Positions 15,820 through 64,000 of a stretch of DNA of 64,000 nucleotides are shown piece after piece; within the stretch, counting starts at the first letter, position 1; every line of letters starts with the position of its first letter. The notes under the pieces are model-generated. The model was not told the origin of the DNA and made no database searches. It was given only the letters and a program-made list of their open reading frames with translations. The position numbers and the translations under genes are program-made. Origin of the DNA: Halomonas sp. Bachu 37. Its GTDB lineage: Bacteria; Pseudomonadota; Gammaproteobacteria; Pseudomonadales; Halomonadaceae. The stretch spans positions 1,798,001 to 1,862,000 of the forward strand of contig NZ_CP137552.1 in NCBI RefSeq assembly GCF_039691755.1. Reading direction: 5' to 3'.

Positions 15820-16176
15820 TTAATTCCGAACAGATGTAAGACCTCGCCGACTTGAAATCAAGGCAACATCCTTATTTTTTGGTATTCGTTGCAGACGCTG
15901 AATAACTTTCTGCTGAGTCTCCGGCGTCCAAAAAATTTTCAAATTCTTCCTGGCCCTTGTTATTGCAGTATAAAAAATACTATGAGAGATATCATCTTCA
16001 TTAGCGTCTGTTATGACTACTTTAACGGAGTCGTATTCAAGCCCTTGCGCTTTATGGATAGATACTGCGTAGGCAACTTGAAAAGGAATTGTAATGTTTA
16101 ATGAGTCATCGTCATCATCACTATTCTTTACTTCAAAAACCTGGAACCTAACGGTCGAATTTCCTATCCACTCTAA
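15820..16176 (-). pseudogene. Detached C-terminal part of the SF1 helicase
   Basis: Reading the minus strand in the same frame as the helicase gene, an open stretch of 118 codons follows its TAA stop and ends at another TAA at 15820-15822. It encodes the missing C-terminal helicase motifs: VSIHKAQGLEYDSVKV (motif V-like), then ISHSIFYTAITRARKNLKIFW (motif VI). No frameshift is needed. The original gene therefore spanned 15820-18528 (902 codons plus stop) and is broken only by codon 784. Without initiation of its own this part is not expected to be made, unless the stop is read through or is a sequencing error. Confidence 0.8.
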
Positions 16177-18528
16177 TTAATTCTCTGCAACGTCAAACTC
16201 AGTCAACGGACGATCAAGCTCTATATCAAATTGAATATAACCAACAGATTGTTCGATTCTAATTATTCGACCTTTTAGGTTGTTATATATAACAGGTTTA
16301 AATCGTTCAGATTCAAAAAAGAGAACGGGATCTCCTACTTTGTATGTCGAATCCCCCCAGTTTATCGCCGGATTAGGGTTACCACTTTGAAGGAATCTAT
16401 TAATATTATTAATCCCGTACAACCCATCGTAATTTAAACACAGTATAATTTCGTCATTACCTTGAGACTGGAAGATACTCGAGTCTAATATCGACGAATA
16501 ACCATGACGAACCATAGCTTCAGTTAAGTCATCATCGATATTTCTAACTTTATTCCAGAAATCTAATAGCGAATGACTCTGCGTTCTAAACGGCGTTGTT
16601 AATTCAAAGACTGAAGAACTAGGAATAAAAGAACGAATCACTTCGAACCAATTGCCAAACTGTATTGACTCAATTTGATACACATCGCCAACAAGAACTA
16701 TCAATTTTGCTGTATTCTTCTCTAACACCTTCAAAAAATCAGAATTACTAACGGTACTGCATTCATCGATGACAAGAAGGTCATAGTCAGGCAAAAAAGG
16801 GTTATAGCTACTATGAATTTCACTACTTACGGTTCGGAAATCAGAATTTTGCGCCGTAACCTTACGCATTAAGTTATCTTTAGCAGGATTCGTATGGGCC
16901 AAAAACAACTTTCTCTTATCACTAAAGTAGTGAGCAATATGGTCCAGCATTGTGGATTTACCTGTACCTGCCGCGCCATATATAAGAGCAACCTTCGAAT
17001 TGCTAAACAATTTAGTCAAAGCCTGGTATTTCACGGTATCATCGATACTGTGAGCTGACTCATCTATCCAACGTGTTACTGCGTGGGTATATCCTGATAT
17101 CCCAGAAGAAGAAAATTGTTTTAACCTTTCAATAATTTTGTAAGTATCTTCTTCGTATCCATTTATAAAAACGTGCCCTTTATCAAAAACTAAACGTCGA
17201 ATTTCTTTATGTTTTTTATAAATTCGATCATTAAAGTCGTTTATTAACTTCTCAACATCTCCAAACTCGATTAAATCTCCGATCGGGGTATACAAAACTC
17301 CATTTCTTTCAACGTTATTTCTAACACGTCTAGCCAGAAGCTCATGTTGACGCCCCACAAAATCGATACAATCAAAGAGATCCCAAAATCTCGGATTATG
17401 TTTAGGGAGAGATGTACAAAAAGGCATCTCATCAAATGGAATACTACTGAAAGAAAATTTCAGATTTGACAGTAGCCTACATTCGTCACGATTATATTGA
17501 GACTTCAGTAATTGATTATTCATCCTCAAAAGAAGATAGCGAAGAATATTACCACCACGTTGAGACGCTTTAATGATCTGTCGCGCTTTATCCAAAAAAA
17601 CGAATATTTGAGAGGCGTTATTTGTAACTAGCGCTCCTAGTCTCACTTGCTGGTAAGTTTGATCACTCATACACATCAGATCATTTAGATTTCGATAACC
17701 CTGTGTCAAAAAGCTCATTAAATATCGATATTCTTGTGAAGATGTACTGCCTGTTACCGAATAACCGAGTAAGCGGGCGAAATTTTTTAGCTCACAAGAA
17801 CGAATAGAAACTTCCCATGCAAGAATTAAAGTAATAGGCATAACTTGGCCTAGCACTTCAATTTGATCGCGTCTTAACGTTAGATTAACCGCGTACTTGT
17901 CCGCTATCTCAAGATCAGTAAAAGCAATGACTCGATCAAACTTACTCACCTTATTTACCGCACGACAAAAGGTCACCTCATAGTAGATCCGACCATTAAA
18001 TATAAATGGACGATTTTTTTGAATATAGTAACGATCTTTTCTATCTCCAACATAATTAGTGTTGCGTGAAAGTTCAATTCTAGCAGATATTTTTTCATGA
18101 TATTCGCGTAACGAAGGATCCAAATCGACAGGAAATGATTCAAGATTGGGTATTATTTGAAGAGAGTAATATTGATAAACGGCGGCTCTAATTCTATACA
18201 AATATTCATAGTATTTGAGCATTAATCTTTCTGATGCATCGCCATCAAAAGTGTAATGCGACGCTACCTTTTGAAGTAGCTTATGGAATCGAAAAATAAA
18301 ATTTAATTTTCCATTCCCGCTAATATGCTGCAGTGCTGGGTTAATTTCGGGGTAAGAGAACTCGGCATCTAATGAATTGCGATAAAACAATACCGCCACC
18401 CCTTCAACCAAATTTCTAACTTGAGCAAGTACGTTCTGAGACAGAAGCTCTCTGTTATCACTAAGATTGGCGATATTATGATAAATAGCGCCGCTTGCGT
18501 TTTGAACTTGATCAAACACAGTAGCCAT
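16177..18528 (-). CDS. SF1 (RecD/UvrD-like) helicase, truncated by an in-frame stop
   Basis: The 783-residue product has an N-terminal half (1-about 500) that matches no family I recognise. A helicase core follows: Walker A IYGAAGTGKST (about 520), Walker B LLVIDECSTVSNSD (about 588), VLVGDVYQIESIQFGNWF (about 613) and the ELTTPFRTQS motif. It stops before motifs V and VI, which lie downstream in the same frame. Taken as written, the enzyme should be inactive as a helicase. The gene is much richer in A+T than recBCD on one side and the DUF427-MFS genes on the other, which suggests horizontal transfer. An attC-like site sits at its 3' side. An AAGGA precedes the start by about 12 nt. A nuclease/helicase role in DNA defence is possible but unproven. 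Confidence 0.75.
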   Translation of the reverse strand: MATVFDQVQNASGAIYHNIANLSDNRELLSQNVLAQVRNLVEGVAVLFYRNSLDAEFSYPEINPALQHISGNGKLNFIFRFHKLLQKVASHYTFDGDASERLMLKYYEYLYRIRAAVYQYYSLQIIPNLESFPVDLDPSLREYHEKISARIELSRNTNYVGDRKDRYYIQKNRPFIFNGRIYYEVTFCRAVNKVSKFDRVIAFTDLEIADKYAVNLTLRRDQIEVLGQVMPITLILAWEVSIRSCELKNFARLLGYSVTGSTSSQEYRYLMSFLTQGYRNLNDLMCMSDQTYQQVRLGALVTNNASQIFVFLDKARQIIKASQRGGNILRYLLLRMNNQLLKSQYNRDECRLLSNLKFSFSSIPFDEMPFCTSLPKHNPRFWDLFDCIDFVGRQHELLARRVRNNVERNGVLYTPIGDLIEFGDVEKLINDFNDRIYKKHKEIRRLVFDKGHVFINGYEEDTYKIIERLKQFSSSGISGYTHAVTRWIDESAHSIDDTVKYQALTKLFSNSKVALIYGAAGTGKSTMLDHIAHYFSDKRKLFLAHTNPAKDNLMRKVTAQNSDFRTVSSEIHSSYNPFLPDYDLLVIDECSTVSNSDFLKVLEKNTAKLIVLVGDVYQIESIQFGNWFEVIRSFIPSSSVFELTTPFRTQSHSLLDFWNKVRNIDDDLTEAMVRHGYSSILDSSIFQSQGNDEIILCLNYDGLYGINNINRFLQSGNPNPAINWGDSTYKVGDPVLFFESERFKPVIYNNLKGRIIRIEQSVGYIQFDIELDRPLTEFDVAEN

Positions 18529-51830: not shown

Positions 51831-52703
51831 TTAATTGCTCCCCGCGTGATGATTAAGGGTCTGAAAAACCGGAGCTTGCCGCTCAAGTACATTTTTCAGG
51901 CTCGGGGTGATGTATTTCAGATAAGTCCGGGACAGGTGATGGGTATCCGACCACATCAACCTCCCATCAAAATATGCTGGGCACAACCCCTTGCTACATA
52001 TCAGCTTGGTAAAATCTACCGAAATAAACAAAGGATTCTGTTTCATATCCTCATCAGCAGGATTGCGCGGTAACAATACCTCTTCGACTGGTCGGGCGCA
52101 TTGGCTCGCCTCCTGCCGGTTCTTCCACACACAGTAGCTTGGGTCGCTTTCAAACCAGGGGTTGTCCCTTATTCCCACGACCGGAATACCCAAACCGTTT
52201 ATTTCCTCCCATTTTTTTACATACTGCTTGGGTACAAACTCAACGGGATCGTCGTCCACTAGCCTGTCCGTGCGCAACCGGTTGGCTCTCGTCGAGTTAG
52301 TGACAACTAAACCGGGATCCAGCTCGCTTAAGTAATCGACAATATTTTCATTCCACAGCTCACATGTATGATTGTCCTCTACTATTTCATATCCCAGAGA
52401 GCACGAATGCTTTATCACGCTTACGAGCTTGAAATTATATTCTTTTGCCAAATTCACAAGAAGAGGACTCCATTGTCCTACATGCGATCCACCTACAAGT
52501 GCGATGACTGTTTCTGATGAAGTATTGCCAAACTCGCAAACTATAATAGTTGAATCATTAATTTCAGTGGCACAACCATTATTTCTGTCCATGACCTCTC
52601 CTAGGTCATTGGCGATAGCAGTAACATAACCATACTCAAGATCTGTGGCATCATCCTGAATATAGATTTCACTACCGTCAAAAGAACTTTTTTTGAAACT
52701 CAC
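51831..52703 (-). pseudogene. SGNH domain half of a frameshifted OafA-type acyltransferase
   Basis: The frame reads GSEIYIQDD, then ALVGGSHVGQWSP (SGNH block I, GGSHV), a long loop and CPAYFDGRLMWSDTHHLSRTY with the DxxH catalytic motif. This is the C-terminal SGNH domain of acyltransferase-3 fusion proteins. No proper start exists here: the frame continues upstream as LHDVEVSFKK and joins the acyltransferase gene at a G5 tract. On its own it is not likely translated. Confidence 0.85.
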
Positions 52704-52722
52704 TTCAACATCATGGAGATTC

Positions 52723-53880
52723 TCAAAATAGTACTTGGCCCCCAGGCCCAGTGTTACCGAAGGTAATGAAAAACAGAAAACCTACCGTATAGGATAACAA
52801 TGTCTTGGTCTTTGGAATGTTTCGAAAGGGCCTCTCTAGCAACATCGTCGTAAAAATGGCAAGCAATATCCCCAACAGGATAACCATCATTCCTTTTACA
52901 AACCCTAAACTGGTAGTCTCGTAATAGTTTTGAAAGAAGATCAATATAGGCCAATGCCATAAATATATGGTAAATGACATTGCGCCCAACACGACGAGAT
53001 ACTTATTGGAAAGCAACTTATTCACTACAGTACTGCCTTCCGACCCACCTCCAGAAACTATCAAAAAAATGGCTGACATGACCGGAAAAAGTGCCACGTA
53101 CCCAGGAAAGCTCCACTCTCTAGGAATCACCACCCCGACACTGACAAGCATCAAAACACCCAAAAAAGAAAGTATCGAAGCTAGTTTTTTATTGACTTTT
53201 AAATACGGCACCAATATTGCAACTAAAGCGCCGGAAAGAAATTCCCAGACTCTTCCAAAAGGATTGAAATAAGCCGTTTCAGGTCTGCTACTCGTTGAAA
53301 TTAAGGAGTAGATAAAAGAAAAAAAAACAACCAGAGAAACGCCTATGACCAAGGGCCTCAATGATTTCATTTTGTTGGACACATAAACTAATGGACCAAG
53401 AAGAAAAGGAAGAAAAGCATAGAACTGCACTTGAATAGACAATGCCCAGAACTGCTGGAAAGGACTAGCGGGTTCTTCCCTTTTCAAATAATCCACTTCT
53501 CGCCTTATCAGTAACAAGTTTTCCAAGTGCGCCGCACTAAAAACAAACTCATTAATTACCGCTTCCCAATAGACCGGCGAGATAAAAAAATAACTGAAAA
53601 ACAGCGTCACCAAAAGGACAATATAGGCAGATGGAGCTACTCGCTTTATTATACCTCCCCAAAACTGCAGAGGTTTCAGAGTTTCTTCTCTCGAATATTG
53701 ACGTAGCAGCAGTCCTGTCATCAAAAATCCCGAAACGACGAAAAACACGTCGACACCGCCGGAAACTTTTTGAAACCAGATATGAAATACCAGTACAAGC
53801 ATGGCGCCAATGGCACGTATCCCTTGAATATCATTACGATAGTTCTTATCTTCCAAGTAGACTTCAAACGTCTTATTCAC
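52723..53880 (-). CDS. Acyltransferase-3 half of an OafA-type protein, ended by a frameshift
   Basis: A 385-residue integral membrane protein of the acyltransferase-3 family, which O-acetylates surface polysaccharide. NDIQGIRAIGAMLVLVFHIWF (with the catalytic His) and GGVDVFFVVSGFLMTGLLL are the family start; about ten helices follow. It begins with GTG after AAGGAGG. The frame ends after a five-C run (plus strand 52739-52743); deleting one base joins it to the SGNH part, giving a 682-residue fusion of typical OafA-SGNH length. It acts in the inner membrane. Confidence 0.85.
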   Translation of the reverse strand: MNKTFEVYLEDKNYRNDIQGIRAIGAMLVLVFHIWFQKVSGGVDVFFVVSGFLMTGLLLRQYSREETLKPLQFWGGIIKRVAPSAYIVLLVTLFFSYFFISPVYWEAVINEFVFSAAHLENLLLIRREVDYLKREEPASPFQQFWALSIQVQFYAFLPFLLGPLVYVSNKMKSLRPLVIGVSLVVFFSFIYSLISTSSRPETAYFNPFGRVWEFLSGALVAILVPYLKVNKKLASILSFLGVLMLVSVGVVIPREWSFPGYVALFPVMSAIFLIVSGGGSEGSTVVNKLLSNKYLVVLGAMSFTIYLWHWPILIFFQNYYETTSLGFVKGMMVILLGILLAIFTTMLLERPFRNIPKTKTLLSYTVGFLFFITFGNTGPGGQVLF

Positions 53881-54041
53881 GTTTCATCCTCCTTGAAAAA
53901 AATGATGATCACCAGGCAAATAAACAACGACGTTCTTCGTCAACTTTATGAAATCTCATCCTTTTTTCTAAATTAACTCCATTTAATTCATCTTAATTTT
54001 ACCTATCCTATTTTAGTAACGATTTATAAAAGAAGAAATTT

Positions 54042-55253
54042 TCAAGCATGGCTTATAACTTCTGCACGGCAATTATTACGTAGATAGGCGGTCATCCGTT
54101 CGCATTCGCGGCCATCGTGCAGGACGGCATGGCGAGCCACGAAATTCACCAAGCGCTGATCGTGACGCCCTTCAAACAGCTCCTGCCATGACTCAGGCAA
54201 CTGCTCCCAAGATTCTATAACTGGCCCTGGTGCATCGGCGAAGTAGTCGCCATAAATGCCCACATCGCGATTAAGGTAATCATCCAGATCCGGCGCCATC
54301 AGGACTATGGGCCGTTTTAGACAAGCATAGTCGTACATCAAGCTGGAATAGTCGGTAATCAACATATCGATTGCCGGAAACAAGGCGTTTACATCAGGAA
54401 ACACACTCACCGGAGCTTCGCGTATGTGTTTATTACCCGCTACCAAGTCTTGCACACCGTTCATCTTCAATGAGGTATGCCCGCGAATGAGCAACAGCAG
54501 GCGATGCTTTTCAAACCACGGCATCAGCGCTTCCAGGCGCTTGCCCTGCGCCACATCAAGGCCTCCCTTTCCTTGCATCCTCAAGGTAGGAGCGTACAAC
54601 ACCACACCGTCATACTCAGTAGTATCGATGCCTGCACGGCGCAGTGATTCAGCAGCGTTGGTCCGGAAAGCATCCCAGCGAGGATAGCCGAGCGCGACTA
54701 CTCTTTCGCTGGATAAACCAAAGGCCGACATCATTCTCTCCCGCGCGATTTCAGAAGCCACCAGCACCTGATGGGGGCTGCGCTGCCCCGGAAGAGCCCG
54801 GCGTAGATAGCGATCGAAGACGCCGGTCAAGACGCCCAGACGCGAGGAGCGGGCATCTTGCACCAATCGCTTGAGGGGCGTGCCATGGGTCAGGTTGATC
54901 AACTGCCCGCCGAGCGAAGCATGGGCATTGACGTCATCGGCCGAATGCGTGACAAGAAACAGCCGGGCACGTAATGACACCAGTATCCCTTTTGCCGAGT
55001 AGGCGAGATAAGCTTCACCACCTTCATCACGCGCCCGCTTCACTACCTCGCGGTCATGAGCCAACCAGACGGCGCGCAGGTCCGGCTCGTTATCGCGCAC
55101 GTGGCGATACAGATAACTGGCATTATCAGCGAATTGGCGGCCGTGCCAGGCCCCGAAGACCCATAGACGGTCATTACGGGGAAAGCACCAGCCAATCAGA
55201 CAAAGAGGCATCCAGGTAAGCTGCTTTGCCAAACGAAATGCATAGGAAGACAT
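54042..55253 (-). CDS. TagF/TagB-like polyol-phosphate (CDP-glycerol) transferase
   Basis: A 403-residue protein of the CDP-glycerol glycerophosphotransferase family, which adds glycerol- or ribitol-phosphate units to a lipid-linked polymer. INLTHGTPLKRL, the VALGYPRWDAF region and DMLITDYSSLMYDYACLKRPIV are the conserved motifs. The N-terminus is hydrophobic (about 9-22) and could bind the membrane. It lies 39 nt downstream of the TagD-like gene, the natural supplier of CDP-glycerol. In Gram-negative bacteria such pairs make polyol-phosphate capsules. Confidence 0.9.
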   Translation of the reverse strand: MSSYAFRLAKQLTWMPLCLIGWCFPRNDRLWVFGAWHGRQFADNASYLYRHVRDNEPDLRAVWLAHDREVVKRARDEGGEAYLAYSAKGILVSLRARLFLVTHSADDVNAHASLGGQLINLTHGTPLKRLVQDARSSRLGVLTGVFDRYLRRALPGQRSPHQVLVASEIARERMMSAFGLSSERVVALGYPRWDAFRTNAAESLRRAGIDTTEYDGVVLYAPTLRMQGKGGLDVAQGKRLEALMPWFEKHRLLLLIRGHTSLKMNGVQDLVAGNKHIREAPVSVFPDVNALFPAIDMLITDYSSLMYDYACLKRPIVLMAPDLDDYLNRDVGIYGDYFADAPGPVIESWEQLPESWQELFEGRHDQRLVNFVARHAVLHDGRECERMTAYLRNNCRAEVISHA

Positions 55254-55292
55254 TGAAGATTCCTGGCCGGCGCCGCCGGCGTCGAGAACAAG

Positions 55293-55754
55293 TTAACCGA
55301 AGTCTTTACGCAACGTATCCAATACATCAAAGGCGTTCATCAGCTCTTCTCGTGAAACGCTGTAAAAAGGGTTGAGGGAGCGTTTGAGCTGGGTAGTAGA
55401 TACGCCGTCGGTACGTGACAGATACACCACTTCGCAGTGAGGTTTGAGGAAATCGAAAGCCCCTTTCCAGTCTTCGCCGATAGCGAATGTATGCACCGCA
55501 TAGCGCTGGATATCGTCTAGCTTCTGGTCCCAGTTGGTCTCGGGAATAACATGGTCCACATAACGGAGTGAGCGCACGATCTCGGCACGATGCTCAAACG
55601 GGATCAAGGTGCGCTTGCCTTTCCCGGCATTGAATTCATCGGTGGAAACACCCACGATCAACCGATCGCCCAATCCTGAAAGACGTCGCAGCAAGTTGAG
55701 ATGGCCGATATGAAACATATCGAAGGTGCCATAGGTGATTACCGTCTTAGCCAT
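55293..55754 (-). CDS. tagD: TagD-like glycerol-3-phosphate cytidylyltransferase
   Basis: A 153-residue nucleotidyltransferase with the H15-I-G-H18 catalytic motif (TYGTFDMFHIGHLNLL) and RTDGVSTTQLK near 115, exactly as TagD. It activates glycerol-3-phosphate (or a related polyol phosphate) as the CDP derivative. GGAGGG precedes the start. A damaged second copy of the first 22 codons lies at 57228-57292. Size and motif match TagD best; other HIGH-type cytidylyltransferases are not fully excluded. Confidence 0.9.
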   Translation of the reverse strand: MAKTVITYGTFDMFHIGHLNLLRRLSGLGDRLIVGVSTDEFNAGKGKRTLIPFEHRAEIVRSLRYVDHVIPETNWDQKLDDIQRYAVHTFAIGEDWKGAFDFLKPHCEVVYLSRTDGVSTTQLKRSLNPFYSVSREELMNAFDVLDTLRKDFG

Positions 55755-56196
55755 ATATTGCCCTCCATTACCATATCGTCCAGTTTAATTCGATTAAATT
55801 GCGGGGCCAGTCGAATATTTCTTCCTGTTAATAAATCGAATTTAGAGACGCAGCCAATCCAGCGCTTACGACAAATCGAGACACAGATCCCCAGTTAATC
55901 ACAAATGTTAAAACTCTGATTCATCAGGTGGATTTATCTATAATTGGACACCCCACCATTTCAACTAAGAGTGTTCACGACAAACCTTCTGGTAACTAAA
56001 TATGCCTTTTACGAAAATAATCGCCTTCAAATTACGAAAAAATTGCTTTCAACACAGGACTATAAATCATCAAACTGTTTCTTGAAGTGAATATAATTAA
56101 ATTATATGCATTATATTAAATATAAGAACAATGTAAATATGATATTAATAGTTAGCATATTTTGAATAATTATAAGCGGCGCAGTGATTTACAAAA
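55755..56196. other. AT-rich spacer between tagD and a PRT-HAD gene
   Basis: No gene is supported here. The composition is the lowest in GC of the locus, with long A/T runs at 56090-56160. No JUMPStart/ops-like sequence was found. It should hold the promoter of tagD and tagF. It lies between two copies of the tagD start, so it probably arrived with the PRT-HAD gene. Confidence 0.4.
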
Positions 56197-57168
56197 TCAC
56201 CCTGTTTTTCTCTTTACAGCTTTCACAGGGTGCCTCAAATTAAGCAAATTCACTGTGTTCCTAATGAAGCGTTTCGCAAAACTGCGTAGTCCCTTTTTGT
56301 TAGGAGCTTTATCTTCTGCCGTATAGACTCGGTTGTCTTCATAGCAATAAACAGGTTTTCCCGAAATTCTAGCAATATTACCAGCCTGCCGAGGGCTACT
56401 TTCGATAAAGAAGATGTAGTCCGAGTTCTTGTAGAAAAGCCCCTTGTGTGAGGAATGAACTCCTTGACGCCGTCGCTCCTCCTTCGAAGGCAGATCCAAC
56501 ATGACTAGATGCTCATAATCAATACCGTGCTGCTCAAGCCACGTTACTGTTTGGCTACGGTATTTTTCAAGCCGGTTGGTTACCAGGCAGCCGATTCGGG
56601 CTGAAGGCAGGAAAAGTGGTTCCGCATTATTCAAAAAAGTAACGTACTGCTCTCCATCATCATTCTCTTGGGCGGTAGGGTCGACGCATAGCACTCCATC
56701 GATATCAAAACACGATTGTGAAAGCATGGCCGGGGCGAAGAGGCTCCATTGGAAAATATAAGGCGATTGCATGATGGATAAGACTATATCAACATGCTGC
56801 TTACCGTCAGGATCTGCATAGATCGCCAAGGTATCGATAGAGCAAGGGCAACCACCGGGGATCGCGTCTCGTGCTTGTTGCATGGTTCGTCCCGTCACAA
56901 CACTATCGTCGACGAGAAGAACCTTTCTTGCATCCCATGCAGCGCTGGGCTGCCCCCCTGCCCTCCTGCGCAACCGTGTTATCAACGGCTGATTTGCTAT
57001 AAAGTCGGGAAGACCCATCACATCGATATGCAAGCCCAAAGCAATCATGCTGGCCGGAATCATGCCACTACGGGGAACACCTACAACTAAATCATAGCCT
57101 TTCCCCTGAATGCTAAATAAGGACGCAGCAATATCCACGCTCAAATCACCATAGGATTTAAAATTCAT
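56197..57168 (-). CDS. Phosphoribosyltransferase-HAD fusion protein of capsule loci
   Basis: A 323-residue cytoplasmic protein with two parts. Residues about 20-125 are a type I phosphoribosyltransferase: LVVGVPRSGMIPASM and the PRPP loop VLLVDDSVVTGRT (about 80-92). Residues about 150-290 are a HAD-like domain: nucleophile motif FDIDGVLCVDPT (about 154-165), then CLVTNRL (motif II) and FFIESS. The pairing recalls the phosphoribosyl-transfer and phosphatase domains of the type b capsule polymerase Bcs3. It may add ribose-5-phosphate from PRPP to a polymer and then remove the phosphate. This is inference. The C-terminus is basic. Confidence 0.8.
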   Translation of the reverse strand: MNFKSYGDLSVDIAASLFSIQGKGYDLVVGVPRSGMIPASMIALGLHIDVMGLPDFIANQPLITRLRRRAGGQPSAAWDARKVLLVDDSVVTGRTMQQARDAIPGGCPCSIDTLAIYADPDGKQHVDIVLSIMQSPYIFQWSLFAPAMLSQSCFDIDGVLCVDPTAQENDDGEQYVTFLNNAEPLFLPSARIGCLVTNRLEKYRSQTVTWLEQHGIDYEHLVMLDLPSKEERRRQGVHSSHKGLFYKNSDYIFFIESSPRQAGNIARISGKPVYCYEDNRVYTAEDKAPNKKGLRSFAKRFIRNTVNLLNLRHPVKAVKRKTG

Positions 57169-57227
57169 ATTTACTTATCCAGAGATATTAATGTGATTTT
57201 CTAAGTAGCTTGGTAATGCTAACCAAA

Positions 57228-57292
57228 CAGCAAATTGCGATGGCCAATATGAAAATATCGAAGGTGCCATAAGTAATTAGCGTCTTGGCCAT
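57228..57292 (-). pseudogene. Broken copy of the tagD 5' end
   Basis: Starting at 57292, the minus strand encodes AKTLITYGTFDI, matching tagD codon by codon. One base is missing after codon 12, after which shifting the frame recovers FHIGHRNLL. Homology stops after 65 nt. It is a scar of recombination or duplication at the tagD start. It lies between the PRT-HAD gene and a GT2 gene. Confidence 0.8.
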
Positions 57293-57323
57293 GGCTCTTA
57301 TCTCCCTTTCACTTCGTCCCGGT

Positions 57324-58244
57324 TCATTTGATTCGGCTGCGCAACCTGTTGAAGTAAGGCTGGGGCACGAGCAGTGAAACGGCATGCAGCCATAGCCGCA
57401 TATTCATTCCGCCAGGCGACAATGCTTTCAAGTCCTGGCGCACCGATTGACCGAGCTGTTTCTTCTCCACTGCCCAGGAAAGCACCTTTCGATTGATCGC
57501 CAAACGAAACTGGCGTCGCTCATCGGGTGCCAGCTTCGTTTCGTACTCCTTCAGAAGATCCAGGCTGGGATGCAAATCGATCAAGTTGCGCTTGTCGCGG
57601 GTAATATCACTGTGCTCAAGCAGCCATAAGCTGGTCACCGTGGCGTTGTAATGTATCGCTTCCATTTCACATAGCGCCTTTAACCAGAAATAGACGTCGC
57701 CTCCACGACGGTAATGACCAGCCGGAAAGCCACCCAGCGACAGGAATCGCTCGCGTCGAATACATGCACCGTTCATATGGATGAAGTCAAAGCGAGCGAA
57801 GGCACATAGAGCTTTCTGACGGTGCAGCCGGCCGACGGGGACTCCATGAATTCGCGGCAAGCGCCGCTGGCCTTCCATCTTTTGATAAGCATTGACGAAC
57901 AGTTCGATCCCCGGAAAGTGAGCAATGTCATCGGTAAAACAAGACAAATGATCGAACAGGAGAATGTCATCGGCATCGAAGAAAACAAGCCACGGTGCGG
58001 TAGACTTCTCGGCACCGAAATTACGTGCCGCATAGCCGCCTGGCCCTGGCGGACTACGCTGGTAAACCTTCAACAAACCGGCCTGCTCATGCTCTCGCAG
58101 AATATCGAGAGAGCCATCGGTGGAGCCGTCGTCCACTGCAATTATTTCGAAGTCCCGAAATGTTTGGCGATACAGGCATTCCAGTGAATTCGCTAAGGTC
58201 GCCACCTTGTTATAGACCGGCATGACCACCGAAATAAAAGCCAT
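57324..58244 (-). CDS. Glycosyltransferase family 2
   Basis: A 306-residue GT-A glycosyltransferase. ISVVMPVYNKVATLANSLECL is the usual start; IIAVDDGSTDGSLDIL and WLVFFDADDILL carry the nucleotide and DxD metal motifs; GGDVYFWLKAL is the acceptor-side ED/GD region. AGGAA precedes the start. The C-terminal 60 residues form helices with a hydrophobic patch. Sugar and acceptor are not predictable. Confidence 0.9.
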   Translation of the reverse strand: MAFISVVMPVYNKVATLANSLECLYRQTFRDFEIIAVDDGSTDGSLDILREHEQAGLLKVYQRSPPGPGGYAARNFGAEKSTAPWLVFFDADDILLFDHLSCFTDDIAHFPGIELFVNAYQKMEGQRRLPRIHGVPVGRLHRQKALCAFARFDFIHMNGACIRRERFLSLGGFPAGHYRRGGDVYFWLKALCEMEAIHYNATVTSLWLLEHSDITRDKRNLIDLHPSLDLLKEYETKLAPDERRQFRLAINRKVLSWAVEKKQLGQSVRQDLKALSPGGMNMRLWLHAVSLLVPQPYFNRLRSRIK

Positions 58245-58344
58245 ATCAGGGGGTTCCTGTGCTGTTCCAAGGGCGCTACCCAGGGCGAGGAAGAGTATCG
58301 TTGGCTACATCGCTTGGCGATGCTTCAGCTTGGGCGGAGCGGGC

Positions 58345-59571
58345 TTATGAAGCGCGCGAGGCTTTATCGAGTGTCTTGGGTTCGAATGTTTTTTGCTGGG
58401 TGTCGCGATAGGCAGGCTTCTCAATCCCCATTGCCTCCAGCATAACGGCGTTTACCTTATGCACGTCGTATCTGTCTTGAACGATTTCATGGGAGCGTTG
58501 CCCCATGGTCTGCACTAGTTCTGGACGGTCGATGAAATGCTGCATGGCCTCTACCAGAGCATCCACATCCTTTACCGGCACCAGATAGCCGTTCTCACCC
58601 TCGATCACGGTTTCTCGACAACCCGGTGCATCGGTGGTGATCACCGCCCGTCCCATCGACATGGCTTCCAGCACAGAACGCGGCGTGCCTTCACGGTAAA
58701 AGCTGGGCAGCACATAAACACTGCACTCGGCAATTGCCGGGCGAACATCGCTCAACCAACCGAGATGTTCGATGCTGCCTTCCCTCACCCAGGTATCCAG
58801 CTCTTCCTGGGTAATCGTGTCGGGGTTGCTGTCGATGTCACCGGCGAGTTGAAATACCATTTCGGGGTGCTGCTGCTTGATTATTCTTGCGGCACTGGCG
58901 TACTGGCGAACCCCCTTGTCACCCAGCAGCCGGGCAACCAGCAAAAAGCGCGGCGGGCCTGATGGCAAGGGGGCCAGCGCGAAATGATTCATATCCACCC
59001 CCGACCCATTGAGTACCTGGGAAGGCACCCGGTCGGAGAGTATTCCAGTCTCACGAAATAGGCCTTCATCGTCGGGATTCTGAAAAAACACCCGGTCAGT
59101 GTTATTCAAAGCCAGCGAATACAGTCTTTTTACCACTTGAAAGACCAAAGCACGCTTGCCCCTAGCCTCCCCGGCAAAGGCGTACCCCAGGCCGGTGATC
59201 AAGGCGTAGCGCCGGGTCACCCCGGCCAGCCAGGCCGCCAGCATCCCGTAGACGACGGGCTTGATGGTATAGCCCAGAACGGTCTGTGGCTGGATACGTC
59301 GCATGAGACGGTACAGCGCTTGCAACGTCAGCAGATCGCGCCACGGGTTCAGGCCGGTTCGCTGCATGGGGATATCGTGAGTCACCGCCCCCCAGGCCTC
59401 GAGCTGCCTGCGGGTGGCCGGGTCTTCATGTAGACCGGGGGCCGCTGCATGCACTTCCAGTCCCGTCTCGATCAACGCCTGCACCAGCGGTCCTCGAAAG
59501 TTGACCAGGGAGTAGCTTGAGCCCGCCACCAGCAGAAAGCGGCGATTCGAAACAGTGACCTTGGGATTCAT
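58345..59571 (-). CDS. Glycosyltransferase family 4
   Basis: A 408-residue GT-B retaining glycosyltransferase. RRFLLVAGSSYSLVNFRGPLV is the N-terminal Rossmann start; FLLVARLLGDKGVRQY and the EX7E-type YVLPSFYREGTPRSVLEAMSMGRAVI are diagnostic of GT4. The start MNPKVTVSN has GAGGAG upstream; 29 extra upstream residues in the frame are not typical. It resembles PglA/CapM-type enzymes that act early after the phosphoglycosyl transferase, probably on the lipid-linked first sugar. Confidence 0.9.
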   Translation of the reverse strand: MNPKVTVSNRRFLLVAGSSYSLVNFRGPLVQALIETGLEVHAAAPGLHEDPATRRQLEAWGAVTHDIPMQRTGLNPWRDLLTLQALYRLMRRIQPQTVLGYTIKPVVYGMLAAWLAGVTRRYALITGLGYAFAGEARGKRALVFQVVKRLYSLALNNTDRVFFQNPDDEGLFRETGILSDRVPSQVLNGSGVDMNHFALAPLPSGPPRFLLVARLLGDKGVRQYASAARIIKQQHPEMVFQLAGDIDSNPDTITQEELDTWVREGSIEHLGWLSDVRPAIAECSVYVLPSFYREGTPRSVLEAMSMGRAVITTDAPGCRETVIEGENGYLVPVKDVDALVEAMQHFIDRPELVQTMGQRSHEIVQDRYDVHKVNAVMLEAMGIEKPAYRDTQQKTFEPKTLDKASRAS

Positions 59572-59672
59572 GAAAACTCCTCGATGAGACACCAGGCAGG
59601 ACGAGCAGCTTGCGCTTACGCCTGGCGTTGAAGAATGGGATCTAGCGAAACACGACAAGCCTACGAACCGCG

Positions 59673-60887
59673 TCAGGTACTAGCCTTCATGACGTCTTGC
59701 AGGACTTGGCAGGTTTTATCGAGCTCGTCCTGAGTGATCGTGGGATGACACAAAAACATCAGGCTGGTCTGGCCCAGCTCCCGCGCCACGGGTAGCCGTG
59801 CTTGCGGCTGCCAGCCGGTGTTCTCAAAGGCCTTTTCGCGATATACCTCGGAGCAGCCCCCCGAGAAACAGGGCACGCCACGCTCGTTGATCTCAGCGAG
59901 AATCCGATCACGATCCCAGCCTGGCTTGAGCCTTTTCGGCTCGACAAATACGTGGCACTTATAGGCAGCATGCCGGGAGTATTCGCTTATGCAGCTGGGT
60001 ACGCTGCCGGAGTTGAACATCGGCACCCGCAGCCCAGAGCAATCGACCGCCGCTTGCCAGATGCGTTGCGCGTTATCCCGGCGTTTAGCGCTCCATTCAG
60101 GCATGCGTTCAAGCTGTATACGGCCGATGGCGGCCTGCATCTCCGTCATGCGCCAGTTCGTGCCGAAGCTCTCGTGCAACCAGCGGAAACCGGGCGGATG
60201 GTCTTGTATGTGGACGGCGTCCCAACTCTTGCCGTGATCCTTGAAGGCCCACATTCTTTTCCACAACGGGGTATCGTCCGTGGTGACCATCCCCCCTTCA
60301 CCGCCGGTGGTCATGATCTTGTCCTGACAGAACGACCAACAGCCCACATGTCCGATACTGCCCACGCTCTTGCCACGATAGCGAGCGCCATGGGCCTGAG
60401 CGCAGTCTTCGATCACATAGAGCCTGTGCTGCTCGGCCAATGCCATCAGCTCGTCCATATCGCATGGCCAACCCGCTAGATGAACCGCGATGATCGCGCG
60501 AGTCCGTGGAGTGATCTTCTCGGCAACTGTCGCGGCGGTGATGTTTTGCGATTCACGATCGATGTCAGCGAATACCGGCACAGCACCGACATTGACGATG
60601 CTAGACGCCGACGCCACGAAAGTACGCGCAGTGACAATGACCTCCTCGTGTTCTTGCTCGCCGATTCCCAGCCCTTTCAGTGCCAATTCCAATGCCGCGG
60701 TACCGTTTGCCAGGGCAATGGCATGCTGTGACCCGACAAAACGGGCAAACTCTCGTTCGAATTCGAGCCCTTCCTCGCCGGTCCAGTAATTCACCTGATT
60801 GGACAGCAGCACGCGCTGCACCGCCTGCGATTCTTCCGCGGTAAAGGAGGGCCAAGGGGAAAAAGGTCCGTTAAGCATGGCTGTCAT
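59673..60887 (-). CDS. DegT/DnrJ/EryC1-family sugar aminotransferase
   Basis: A 404-residue PLP enzyme that aminates a nucleotide-linked keto-sugar. The PLP lysine is in SFCQDKIMTTGGEGGM (about 190); GTAALELALKGL and VIEDCAQAHGARYRG are family segments. It overlaps the ATP-grasp stop by 17 nt; an ATG nine nt later is an equally likely start. No dehydratase (FlmA/PglF type) is in the window, so the keto-sugar may be made elsewhere. Its product would be a 3- or 4-amino sugar unit. Confidence 0.88.
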   Translation of the reverse strand: MTAMLNGPFSPWPSFTAEESQAVQRVLLSNQVNYWTGEEGLEFEREFARFVGSQHAIALANGTAALELALKGLGIGEQEHEEVIVTARTFVASASSIVNVGAVPVFADIDRESQNITAATVAEKITPRTRAIIAVHLAGWPCDMDELMALAEQHRLYVIEDCAQAHGARYRGKSVGSIGHVGCWSFCQDKIMTTGGEGGMVTTDDTPLWKRMWAFKDHGKSWDAVHIQDHPPGFRWLHESFGTNWRMTEMQAAIGRIQLERMPEWSAKRRDNAQRIWQAAVDCSGLRVPMFNSGSVPSCISEYSRHAAYKCHVFVEPKRLKPGWDRDRILAEINERGVPCFSGGCSEVYREKAFENTGWQPQARLPVARELGQTSLMFLCHPTITQDELDKTCQVLQDVMKAST

Positions 60888-61947
60888 CCATAGCCAGCAA
60901 GTCTTTCTCGTTCATCACGAGGGGCGTCTCATCCACATCCCTGAGGAATATAGTGCCTCTAGGAAATTCATAATGCTGGTATTCTAAGGAGAAATTATCC
61001 GGGTTGAGGTTGGCTTCCAGATAGTCCAACGGCAAGTTGGCCCCCGCCTTGGCCAATGATGAAGCGAAGGCAACGAACCTTACGTTTATCTCGGTTATCA
61101 TGGGTATGCCTTGCGCATTTTCCTTGAAGTCAACGGTAAAAATGCCATTAGCTTTCGCTTTAAACTGACTGAATATCGAATTAATCGCGTCATCGGCAAT
61201 ATCGACGAGACCCTTGTCGTTGATCATTCTTCCAAACGATGTGTTGCCTGTAATACCGGAGGGCGCCACCTTGGCCATGACGTATTCCAAGCGTTCAGCA
61301 CAGGCGGATCGGAAAATCTTTCCATTCTTGTAAAGCACTTTACACGCCAGATTCCTTCCAGGCAGGAATTCTGAAGCGATGAATTCTTCAATTCGTGGGT
61401 TGATTTTCATCCACTCATCCAGTTCCTGCTCATTGTTGATCTTCAAAGAACCCAGGCCGCTTGAACCAACAGTTCCACGCACCCAGAAAGGGTATTCAAC
61501 CGTAATTTTTTTTCTGTCAGTTTGATTCAGGAAAGTGCAGTAGCTGGGTATATAGCTTTTATCCTTGAGCAAGTCATGAAGTGACTTCTTATCGACCAAT
61601 GCTGCGGTAGGCTTAAAAGGAGAAATAAAGGCCTTGCACGGTAGCCCTTCGCGATCTTGTCTTTCGGACCAGGCCACGACCTCCGCTTCGGGTAACACTA
61701 CGGCGAACTCGATTTGATGACGATCAATTATTTTCGCTATCTTTTCCCAGTACCTTTCGTCATTCGCCTTTGGTACCAGGTAGGTCTTGCTGTAGGAAGC
61801 CGTGTCATACAGACCGATCGCCAGACGATTGGCATCCACGCCGATGAAATTATAGTTATCGCATTTAGAATCGGCAATGGATCTGACAAAGCTGCGAGGC
61901 GTCGGTCCTCCTACGCCAGTGACTAGCACATTAATTTTTTTAGTCAT
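60871..61947 (-). CDS. ATP-grasp (carbamoyl-phosphate-synthase-like) protein
   Basis: A 358-residue ATP-grasp ligase. VLVTGVGGPTPRSFVRSI (N-terminal Rossmann), FWVRGTVGSSGLGSLKI (ATP loop) and FTVDFKENAQGIPMITEINVRF (metal-binding Glu/Asn) are present. The start MTKKINVLVTG is preceded by GAGGTGA and overlaps the sugar-transferase stop by 8 nt. In capsule loci such proteins may attach amino acids or small acids to an amino sugar; the neighbouring aminotransferase fits, but the substrate is inference. Confidence 0.85.
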   Translation of the reverse strand: MTKKINVLVTGVGGPTPRSFVRSIADSKCDNYNFIGVDANRLAIGLYDTASYSKTYLVPKANDERYWEKIAKIIDRHQIEFAVVLPEAEVVAWSERQDREGLPCKAFISPFKPTAALVDKKSLHDLLKDKSYIPSYCTFLNQTDRKKITVEYPFWVRGTVGSSGLGSLKINNEQELDEWMKINPRIEEFIASEFLPGRNLACKVLYKNGKIFRSACAERLEYVMAKVAPSGITGNTSFGRMINDKGLVDIADDAINSIFSQFKAKANGIFTVDFKENAQGIPMITEINVRFVAFASSLAKAGANLPLDYLEANLNPDNFSLEYQHYEFPRGTIFLRDVDETPLVMNEKDLLAMDDSHA

Positions 61948-62563
61948 TTTTTTCACCTCTGTCATTTCGCAGTTTCGATTCCTTGAAATTCGGCATGGCG
62001 ACTTCACTGGAATGACTGATACCTTCGCGCACGAATACTTTCTTTACTGTAAGCAGCAATATCTTGATATCGAGAAGAAAATTCCGGTTGTCTACGTACC
62101 AGACGTCATAATCGAATTTTCTGTCCCAGGTAATCGTGTTGCGCCCGTTGACTTGCGCCCAGCCGGTCACCCCTGGACGAACCTCATGGCGTCGCGACTG
62201 GTACGTGCTATAAAACGGCAAATATTCCATCAATAATGGCCGCGGCCCCACCAAACTCATGTCGCCTTTAAGAACATTCCAGAGCTCAGGCAATTCATCC
62301 AGGCTTGTGGATCGTAGGCGCCTACCAAAGGGAGTCAAGCGCTCTTTTTCCGTTAATCTCCTACCATGTTTATCATAAGCATCGCGCATGGAACGGAACT
62401 TGATGATCTCGAACGGCTTGCCATAAAGCCCGGGGCGAGTCTGACGAAAAAAAATAGGTGACCCCATCTTATAGCGAATCATCAGAGCGACGACGACTAA
62501 TACTGGAGAGAGCAAGATCAATCCGGTCAGCGAAGTAATAAAATCGAATTGGCGCTTTAACAT
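61940..62563 (-). CDS. Initiating phosphoglycosyl transferase, PglC-like
   Basis: A 207-residue monotopic bacterial sugar transferase that loads the first sugar-phosphate onto undecaprenyl phosphate. Residues about 6-30 form the re-entrant membrane helix; FRQTRPGLYGKPFEIIKFRSMR, SLDELPELWNVLKGDMSLVGPRP (catalytic Asp-Glu) and RPGVTGWAQVNGRN are canonical. It lacks the long N-terminal part of WbaP, so it is of the PglC size class. The ATG at 62563 replaces a TTG two codons earlier. It starts the chain in which the GT4 and GT2 enzymes extend. Confidence 0.93.
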   Translation of the reverse strand: MLKRQFDFITSLTGLILLSPVLVVVALMIRYKMGSPIFFRQTRPGLYGKPFEIIKFRSMRDAYDKHGRRLTEKERLTPFGRRLRSTSLDELPELWNVLKGDMSLVGPRPLLMEYLPFYSTYQSRRHEVRPGVTGWAQVNGRNTITWDRKFDYDVWYVDNRNFLLDIKILLLTVKKVFVREGISHSSEVAMPNFKESKLRNDRGEKND

Positions 62564-62620
62564 AGACAACCACCATCTTATCTAGTAAGAATGAAACAGC
62601 CTTTCAATCTCTACTCACAT

Positions 62621-63526
62621 CTAAATTCGAGACCTGAAATTGACTATCTTCCATATTACGGACTTACCAACCCTCTTTAACTCATTGTAATCAAGGCTCG
62701 CCCCCGGGTTGTAGATATGACTCTCCATCTGGCAGTACACCGGCATATTCGAAGCTTGATTTATTATCCCCGCCTGTTCAGCCTCACTTTCAATATAGAG
62801 GTAGGCGGAAGATTGCATGAACTTTTCCGCCTTGAACTTTGCACTTGATACTTTATCCAAAACATTGAAGACGTCTCTATCGCCCATCATGACGAGATTT
62901 GAAAACTTTATACTATGCTTCTCCAGCCATGTAGTGACTTCTTTACGTTGCGCTTCCTGGCGACAGGAAACTATTGTATTTATTGTGCCCGAAGGTAAAT
63001 AACGAGGTACCATCACCGAATTATCTCGGTTTTTCTCTGTCATTATGACCCCTTCCAGCGAAATACAAGCTCCTTCCACTATTTTGTGATGAAATATATT
63101 CCATTCAAATATTCGAGGCAAAGGCGTAAACTCAAGAATGATATCTACATCTTTTCTGATAGGTTTATTGGAGTACACGGCGAGAGTAGTTACACGCTCC
63201 CGTAACCAATCCGGCATACATTCCAGTTCCTTTTTTAGCGACTCTCCACTCAATATACTGTCGTCAACCAATAGAACCTTCTTGGCTTCCCAAGGATGGG
63301 TGATATTTTTTTTAAGCTCTCGCGTCACCCCTTTTTTCAAGGGAAAATTGTTTATCCAGGCGCTGATATCTGTGCAATTCACATTCATTGCCAGAGAAAT
63401 CATATAAGCCGGTATCATTCCGCTTCTCGGTATCCCTACGACAAGATCCCAATCTCCCGCCATCTTGTTTAAATTCTTGTTAATATCGATACTCAAATCA
63501 GCATATGACTTGAAATGAATCTGCAT
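62621..63526 (-). CDS. Phosphoribosyltransferase-HAD paralogue with degenerate HAD site
   Basis: A 301-residue paralogue of the PRT-HAD protein at 56197-57168, collinear from FKSYADLSIDI onward. The PRT part is recognisable (LVVGIPRSGMIPAYM, VLLVDDSILSGES), with the PRPP loop TGRT changed to SGES. In the HAD part the nucleophile motif is ISLEGVIM (about 157-164) where the other protein has FDIDGVLC, so the nucleophile Asp and the second Asp are lost. The C-terminus of the HAD domain is intact in outline. It may be regulatory, or a PRT without phosphatase activity. GGGAG precedes the start. Confidence 0.75.
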   Translation of the reverse strand: MQIHFKSYADLSIDINKNLNKMAGDWDLVVGIPRSGMIPAYMISLAMNVNCTDISAWINNFPLKKGVTRELKKNITHPWEAKKVLLVDDSILSGESLKKELECMPDWLRERVTTLAVYSNKPIRKDVDIILEFTPLPRIFEWNIFHHKIVEGACISLEGVIMTEKNRDNSVMVPRYLPSGTINTIVSCRQEAQRKEVTTWLEKHSIKFSNLVMMGDRDVFNVLDKVSSAKFKAEKFMQSSAYLYIESEAEQAGIINQASNMPVYCQMESHIYNPGASLDYNELKRVGKSVIWKIVNFRSRI

Positions 63527-63564: not shown

Positions 63565-64000
63565 TTAGCTAATTACTGTCGATGCATATGATGGAGAAAG
63601 GGATAAGGGTAAGACAGGGTTTGCTCTCCCTACCGAATAGTAAGTAAAGCCTTTCGCCACCATTCGACGAGGCTCATACAGATTTCGTCCATCGAAGATG
63701 GTCGGTTCGGAAAGCTGAGTCTTGATAAATTCAAAATCAGGCGCCCGAAAGTTCTGCCACTCGGTGACAATGATCAAGGCATTGGTATTTTTCAGTGCGG
63801 CTTCCTTGGTACCACAAAGGGATAGGTGCTCGTGGCTTCCGTAAAGACGCTGAGCTTCTTCCATGGCTTCCGGGTCATAGGCCTGCACCTTGGCACCGGC
63901 GGTCCAGAGCGCTTCCATAAGCACGCGGCTGGGGGCATCGCGCATATCGTCGGTGTTGGGCTTGAACGAAAGTCCCCAGATTGCGAAGTTCTTGCCCTCT
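63565..64000 (-). CDS. ugd: UDP-glucose 6-dehydrogenase, C-terminal part (cut by window edge)
   Basis: The C-terminal about 145 residues of a UDP-sugar dehydrogenase that oxidises UDP-glucose to UDP-glucuronate. GLSFKPNTDDMRDAPSR begins the C-terminal domain; VTEWQNFRAPDFE and IFDGRNLYEPRRM match Ugd. An unusual tail (VLPLSLSPSYASTVIS) extends beyond the usual end. The 5' part, with the NAD-binding and catalytic Cys regions, lies outside the window. UDP-GlcA would supply the polysaccharide locus. Confidence 0.9.
   Translation of the reverse strand, partial: EGKNFAIWGLSFKPNTDDMRDAPSRVLMEALWTAGAKVQAYDPEAMEEAQRLYGSHEHLSLCGTKEAALKNTNALIIVTEWQNFRAPDFEFIKTQLSEPTIFDGRNLYEPRRMVAKGFTYYSVGRANPVLPLSLSPSYASTVIS

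Follow-up and report, generated by a model that had tools for sequence, protein, structure and literature searches.

What does a phosphoribosyltransferase (PRT) fused to a HAD phosphatase do among the capsule genes of a halophile? The question is raised by a 64,000-nucleotide stretch of the Halomonas sp. Bachu 37 genome (GCF_039691755.1, NZ_CP137552.1 positions 1,798,001-1,862,000), hereafter called the window, in which positions 54042-57168 carry genes for a TagF-like protein, a TagD-like protein and a PRT-HAD protein that we call copy A; a paralogue, copy B, is encoded in the same cluster. All three genes proved to be real. We propose, with a probability of about one half, that copy A is a membrane-associated glycan ribosyltransferase-phosphatase of capsule assembly that depends on phosphoribosyl pyrophosphate (PRPP).

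Domains and conserved residues of copy A

The original prediction that a PRPP-type PRT is fused here with a HAD phosphatase was borne out by a PF00156 match, PRPP-binding motifs and HAD motifs. The features of copy A are as follows.

56197..57168, minus strand: PRT-HAD copy A, 323 residues, with an N-terminal PRT domain, a C-terminal HAD domain and a basic tail
Residues 1-140, minus strand: type I PRT domain, N-terminal
57064..57075, minus strand: pyrophosphate (PPi)-loop-type motif PRSG, residues 32-35, from conservation, its role by analogy
56884..56919, minus strand: PRPP-binding loop LLVDDSVVTGRT, residues 84-95, from conservation
Residues 143-285, minus strand: HAD domain, C-terminal
56695..56706, minus strand: intact HAD motif I, DIDG, residues 155-158, from conservation
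56200..56316, minus strand: basic amphipathic tail, residues 285-323, net charge +10 by computation

Copy A and copy B both passed the PF00156 model (32.8 bits against a cut-off of 26.3). A database search with the PRT-HAD protein gave 2,909 hits (E <= 0.001), of which 120 were listed, and residues were counted in 205 homologues listed by this and a second search. R33, S34 and G35 of the PRSG motif, which we take to be the PPi loop by analogy with type I PRTs, were kept in 204 of the 205, the remaining one having a gap. The PRPP loop was equally well conserved (D87 in 203, D88 in 204 and G93 in 204), and F139 and W141 were invariant (205/205). Copy A has all the HAD phosphatase motifs, namely the DxD of motif I, the T/S, the K and the acidic motif IV. 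Among the homologues, D155 was present in 162 and D157 in 177, motif I being complete in 162/205, and the tree showed 10 or more changes at the nucleophile position. Because the PRPP-site residues persist in 203-204 of 205 sequences while the nucleophile has changed so often, the PRT is the constant part of the family, the phosphatase nucleophile being lost at times. In the structural model of the HAD domain, the motif I strand occupies residues 10-12 and the next strand residues 50-58, with 37 residues and one 9-residue helix between them, and the domain is predicted to have no large cap.

Genomic context in bacteria and viruses

We analyzed the surroundings of the best 80 of 501 PRT-HAD loci, which are accordingly close relatives with Mesorhizobium over-represented, and which carry 39 organism labels (genera, or higher groups for some genomes). 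A polysaccharide gene from a fixed query set lay within 1.5 kb at 45/80 loci (16/39 labels), compared with 1/21 loci of short gpt-like PRTs, a rough control drawn from genomes related to that of the window. Within 10 kb the figure rose to 64/80 loci and 29/39 labels. In a selection of 55 of these 80 loci, 46 had the upstream gene on the same strand. The 45 upstream genes scanned gave 9 matches to polysaccharide flippase models and 9 to the family 2 glycosyltransferase model (GT2), and the 40 downstream genes gave 7 flippases and 9 Glyco_transf_4 matches; these Pfam tallies overlap, are taken from 25 of 36 families listed, and depend on open reading frame (ORF) calls that are crude in GC-rich DNA. 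Before the scans, 10/55 upstream genes, 12/52 downstream genes and 63/132 viral neighbours had been left out.

In the annotation of Paracoccus and Bosea plasmids, the immediate neighbour of the PRT-HAD gene is a lipopolysaccharide biosynthesis protein. A Rhizobium etli plasmid showed a mixed neighbourhood, and genes for a UbiA prenyltransferase, a GtrA-like protein, an FAD oxidoreductase and an SDR protein were seen there about 4-11 kb from the PRT-HAD gene (L126:756-8017); this set resembles a decaprenyl-arabinose pathway.

A scan of IMG/VR found 36 viral contigs (L133-L168) encoding PRT-HAD relatives, five of them longer than 150 kb. Neighbours were derived at 24/36 of these loci, and the 69 of 132 that were scanned included GT2, GT17, nucleotide-sugar transferase, Stealth and rhamnosyl O-methyltransferase families together with capsid and recombination genes. 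HAD motif I was intact in 35/35 viral members with residues at this position. In one contig (L167), the PRT-HAD gene has an internal stop under table 11, indicating a broken gene or another code. Copy A had no match among the GenBank/INPHARED phages at E 1e-5.

The PRT-HAD gene was present in 2 of the 105 Psychrobacter genomes searched, P. submarinus KMM 225 and strain APC 3426, and the capsule structure of P. submarinus has reportedly been published. The capsule of Psychrobacter marincola contains beta-D-ribofuranose (PMC7281560). A link between the PRT-HAD gene and a known ribose glycan, sought through Psychrobacter capsules and the literature, was not established; likewise, no functional study of the family was found in a literature search for which subscription journals were largely out of reach.

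The basic C-terminal tail

Of the 203 database tails with at least 15 residues after residue 284 (two of the 205 entries, with short ends, were left out, and isolates and metagenomes were mixed), 195 had a net charge of at least +4. The median net charge was +8 for the tail versus -1 for the remainder of the protein, and the tails were amphipathic, with a mean moment of 0.59 versus 0.42 for shuffled tails. The same feature was repeated at 78 of the 79 genome loci that could be read, one of the 80 being cut by a contig end. These properties suggest that the tail mediates peripheral membrane binding in cells. A tail of at least 15 residues was found in none of the 36 viral members, two of which finish at contig ends, and these tail-less sequences may simply represent one lineage.

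The capsule cluster

The other genes of the cluster within the window are listed below.

54042..55253, minus strand: TagF/TarF-like CDP-polyol polyol-phosphotransferase, 403 residues, from family models
55293..55754, minus strand: TagD-like glycerol-3-phosphate cytidylyltransferase, from family models
57324..58244, minus strand: family 2 glycosyltransferase (PF00535)
58345..59658, minus strand: family 4 glycosyltransferase (GT4; PF13692/PF00534)
59673..60887, minus strand: DegT/PseC-like sugar aminotransferase (PF01041; PseC model under its cut-off)
60871..62007, minus strand: ATP-grasp protein (PF02655)
61940..62569, minus strand: initiating polyprenyl-phosphate sugar transferase, Bac_transf (PF02397)
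62621..63526, minus strand: PRT-HAD copy B, 301 residues, PRPP loop kept, HAD nucleophile lost
63565..64000, minus strand: UDP-glucose 6-dehydrogenase-like gene, 3' part, named from reading of the sequence

The TagF-like protein matched PF04464 with 183.7 bits against a cut-off of 22.1, while, of the NCBIfam models listed, TarF, TarL and TarB all scored far under their cut-offs. The TagD-like protein scored 162.4 bits with TIGR01518, marginally under the curated cut-off of 165.4. The UDP-glucose 6-dehydrogenase-like gene extends beyond the window, where a longer interval of the same genome (L113) contains it as a 459-residue ORF. This interval also encodes an epimerase, a Polysacc_synt_2 protein and a DUF218 protein, and, upstream, Wza, Wzc, an ABC protein with a membrane region (a putative flippase) and an O-antigen-ligase-family protein. 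The window genes are thus part of a capsule cluster. The original prediction had inferred a polyol-phosphate polymer from TagD and TagF. As the genes are those for assembling a capsule of the Wza/Wzc kind from lipid-linked repeats, with a putative ABC flippase, it is more likely that TagD and TagF add a glycerol-phosphate group to the repeat unit, and we no longer favor the polymer. A poly(polyol-phosphate) capsule of the ABC-transporter type would call for an ABC-2 capsule exporter in place of Wza/Wzc with a flippase.

Beyond the tagF end, an acyltransferase-SGNH protein is divided between two ORFs (51831-53880; AT3 at 52723-53880 and SGNH at 51831-52703). In several relatives it is a single ORF of 685-698 residues, and the gene in the window may have been split or broken.

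Insertion of copy A next to tagD

Copy A and tagD are separated by an apparently non-coding gap, and the following features mark the borders of the segment.

55755..57227, strand not assigned: inserted segment bearing copy A, absent from the related locus L123
57228..57292, minus strand: truncated 5' copy of tagD, 65 nucleotides, 87.9% identical to 55689-55754

L123, from the same genus, has the order GT2a, TagF, TagD, GT2b, GT4, DegT, ATP-grasp, Bac_transf, copy B and UGD, with no copy A. Its alignment with the window falls into two blocks, 54038-55754 and 57239-58246, and the stretch between them is therefore extra in the window. The opening codons of tagD occur again at the far edge of this extra segment (57228-57292), and the GC content of 55755-57227 is 0.425, compared with 0.545 and 0.53 in the flanks. 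The gap itself (55755-56196, 442 nucleotides, GC 0.328) had no match in the 20 related loci compared. Elsewhere, the lowest-GC 2-kb block of the window is 16001-18000 (GC 0.37).

In the related locus L121, which keeps copy B, only a remnant of copy A of about 109 nucleotides was left, just ahead of an acyltransferase gene (L121:14753-14861), and in L114 copy A lies upstream of wza, 15 kb from copy B. Given the empty site, the remnant and the changed position, copy A is gained and lost among these clusters, and its pairing with TagD/TagF is recent. In L120, copy A is directly followed by a gene for a P-loop kinase-like protein of 254 residues (L120:13871-14635) with an AAA_18 match and a weak deoxynucleoside-kinase match.

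Copy B lacks the phosphatase nucleophile

63050..63061, minus strand: degenerate HAD motif I of copy B, SLEG replacing DIDG, from sequence comparison

Copy B is 35% identical to copy A. All recovered copy-B sequences with a readable motif had SLEG or CLEG, and all 23 copy-B group members listed from the databases had lost the nucleophile. These 23 sequences split from the other 182 on one branch (FastTree, local support 99). Among 37 genomes of the genus, including that of the window, copy A was present in 5 and copy B in 7, and all five genomes with copy A also had copy B (hypergeometric 4.8e-5, not corrected for kinship).

Proposed function and alternatives

The observed motifs, predicted fold, gene context, tail and insertion history are the basis on which we infer a substrate, a product, an order of reactions and membrane binding. 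Copy A would be a peripheral-membrane enzyme acting on the inner side of the membrane. There its type I PRT domain would take ribose-5-phosphate from PRPP and attach it, with inversion, to a hydroxyl group on a growing lipid-linked oligosaccharide; the fused HAD domain would then strip the 5-phosphate to give beta-ribofuranose. Copy B, with its PRT kept and its HAD nucleophile gone, would use another phosphatase such as that of copy A, or its product would stay phosphorylated. TagD and TagF would form an independent module for adding glycerol phosphate. The earlier idea that PRPP is used directly for a surface polymer is retained in so far as PRPP-dependent ribosylation is, judging from the conserved motifs and the gene context, the most likely function, and abandoned as regards a polymer made by TagD/TagF.

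We considered whether the product of the PRT-HAD protein is instead a small precursor, either ribosylated or a ribose phosphate (such as ribose linked to a lipid or metabolite), that another enzyme adds to the glycan. The frequent flippase neighbours and the tail, which suggests a membrane substrate, agree with this, and a polyprenyl-phosphate ribose donor is known to be formed from PRPP (PMC11127046). However, the known enzymes of this kind are UbiA-fold membrane proteins, the viral members are tail-less, and the 25 families listed, of 43 in the viral neighbourhoods, included no flippase. We regard a precursor as unlikely, although worth keeping in mind. Somewhat less probable is that the protein regulates capsule enzymes as a sensor of PRPP, nucleotide or lipid, or as a structural partner, with a HAD domain that is often non-catalytic. 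PRT-fold regulators exist, and the PyrR and GfcR models matched weakly; the HAD nucleophile was repeatedly lost, and in structure comparison the HAD domain resembled a Nir2 domain solved with phosphatidic acid. Against a sensor stand the nearly invariant PRPP-site residues, the intact motif I in most listed members and in every readable viral one, and a Pfam scan of copy A that gave no DNA-binding domain.

The fold and best sequence matches of the copy A PRT are purine PRTs, which would fit a nucleobase-salvage enzyme sitting by chance in capsule loci. In 6-oxopurine PRTs, an Asp in the PRPP loop and a Lys read the purine. At loop position 91, Asp was found in 4/205 listed homologues, and the Lys was found in 0/205 at the position aligned to XGPRT. 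With these marker residues absent, with a separate short PRT (29% identical; G000:C1:1216958-1217332) in the same genome, and with a context that is mostly glycan assembly, purine salvage was rejected as improbable. Slightly less probable still is the model of the original prediction, in which TagF, PRT and HAD would act together as a Bcs3-type polymerase divided among separate proteins, its product a polymer of ribose and polyol phosphate. The three activities are indeed encoded within 3.1 kb, and the TagF-like protein aligns with residues 4-332 of Bcs3 (8a0c), the CroT part, at E 1.8e-11. Yet TagD and TagF were each found at 0/80 PRT-HAD loci (tblastn, E 1e-5, up to 10 kb on each side and less at contig ends), and L123 has TagD/TagF at an empty site without copy A, though with copy B, so that the supposed coupling is not supported. 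In addition, the domains differ from CriT and CrpP of Bcs3, and the cluster is of the Wza/Wzc type; we rejected this model as very unlikely. A toxin-like PRT acting on nucleotides, in the way of the ShosT part of ShosTA, is scarcely credible. In its favor is a weak match of the HAD model to the ShosTA structure 8zvb (E 0.23). Against it, no PADLOC model matched copy A or copy B (which also led us to reject an anti-phage system), the context is glycan synthesis, and a literature search showed nothing relevant among the 6 of 53 papers listed.

Going beyond the ribosyltransferase-phosphatase reading of copy A, we tentatively suggest, as a possibility with the odds somewhat against it, that PRT-HAD proteins could be a second class of PRPP-dependent O-ribosyltransferase, independent of gPRT/CriT and derived from a purine PRT and a Pnkp-like phosphatase. 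Bacteria of several phyla would use a basic-tail membrane form on lipid-linked capsule repeats, and phages a tail-less form on soluble glycans, perhaps of virions. In the halophile, one active copy would work alongside a pseudophosphatase copy; part of the ribose in the capsule could then keep its 5-phosphate and make the capsule more negatively charged. If so, many proteins labelled phosphoribosyltransferase or uncharacterized HAD would serve to predict ribose, both in the surface glycans made by several phyla and in some of the glycan cassettes of phages, and PRPP-dependent glycan ribosylation would have had two or more separate origins, each in a different PRT stock. With its dead phosphatase, the natural paralogue offers a simple test of whether phosphoribosyl residues can persist in a capsule. 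The locus is of interest as part of a widespread family common to bacterial capsule clusters and viral genomes, with active-looking and dead-phosphatase copies in one halophile cluster.

Comparison with known systems

The original prediction took direct PRPP use for a surface polymer in a halophile to be undescribed, but surface glycans ribosylated from PRPP have been published before, for Haemophilus influenzae type b Bcs3, Campylobacter jejuni Cj1432 and Klebsiella. The polyprenyl-phosphate phosphoribosyltransferases C. youngae ORF15 and M. tuberculosis Rv3806c likewise take ribose for surface glycans from PRPP; unlike copy A, they are UbiA-family integral membrane proteins that use polyprenyl phosphate. 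E. coli XGPRT and S. solfataricus HGXPRT share with copy A the type I PRT fold and a PRPP loop with contiguous Asp-Asp, whereas copy A lacks the 6-oxopurine-marking Asp and Lys and adds a HAD domain and a basic tail. The T4 Pnkp 3'-phosphatase domain and bacterial Pnkp1 differ in that copy A has no kinase domain, identity being 13-18% among the matches listed.

The CriT/CrpP part of Bcs3, and Cj1432, resemble the PRT-HAD protein in combining PRPP-based ribosylation with HAD dephosphorylation within a capsule system. CriT (Bcs3 residues 592-1036) has helical bundles and carries its acidic residues D680 and E818 on separate loops, and CrpP has a 98-residue alpha-helical cap (PMC10299916). When 56197-57168 was compared with these domains, the large cap and the split acidic pair were both absent, the copy A family having contiguous D87-D88, so that identity of copy A with the Bcs3 set is not supported. 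Moreover, in Bcs3 the HAD precedes the transferase and other transferases are fused, whereas in copy A the PRT comes first, PRT and HAD together span about 285 residues, and the family has no genetic linkage to TagF. Bcs3 was absent from the best 60 of 65 profile matches, the 5 HAD-profile matches and the best 50 fold-search matches of each search, which is no proof of different folds.

Another comparison is with gPRT, which a 2022 gPRT-PRP study is said to describe as diverging from ordinary PRTs. Like the PRT-HAD protein, the gPRT-PRP ribofuranosyltransferases are PRTs fused to a HAD phosphatase and encoded in polysaccharide loci, with PRPP as presumed donor and removal of the 5-phosphate, and their PRP domains carry an alpha-helical cap (PMC11127046). 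In contrast to that capped PRP domain, copy A combines a HAD domain without a large cap, as modelled, with a canonical type I PRT.

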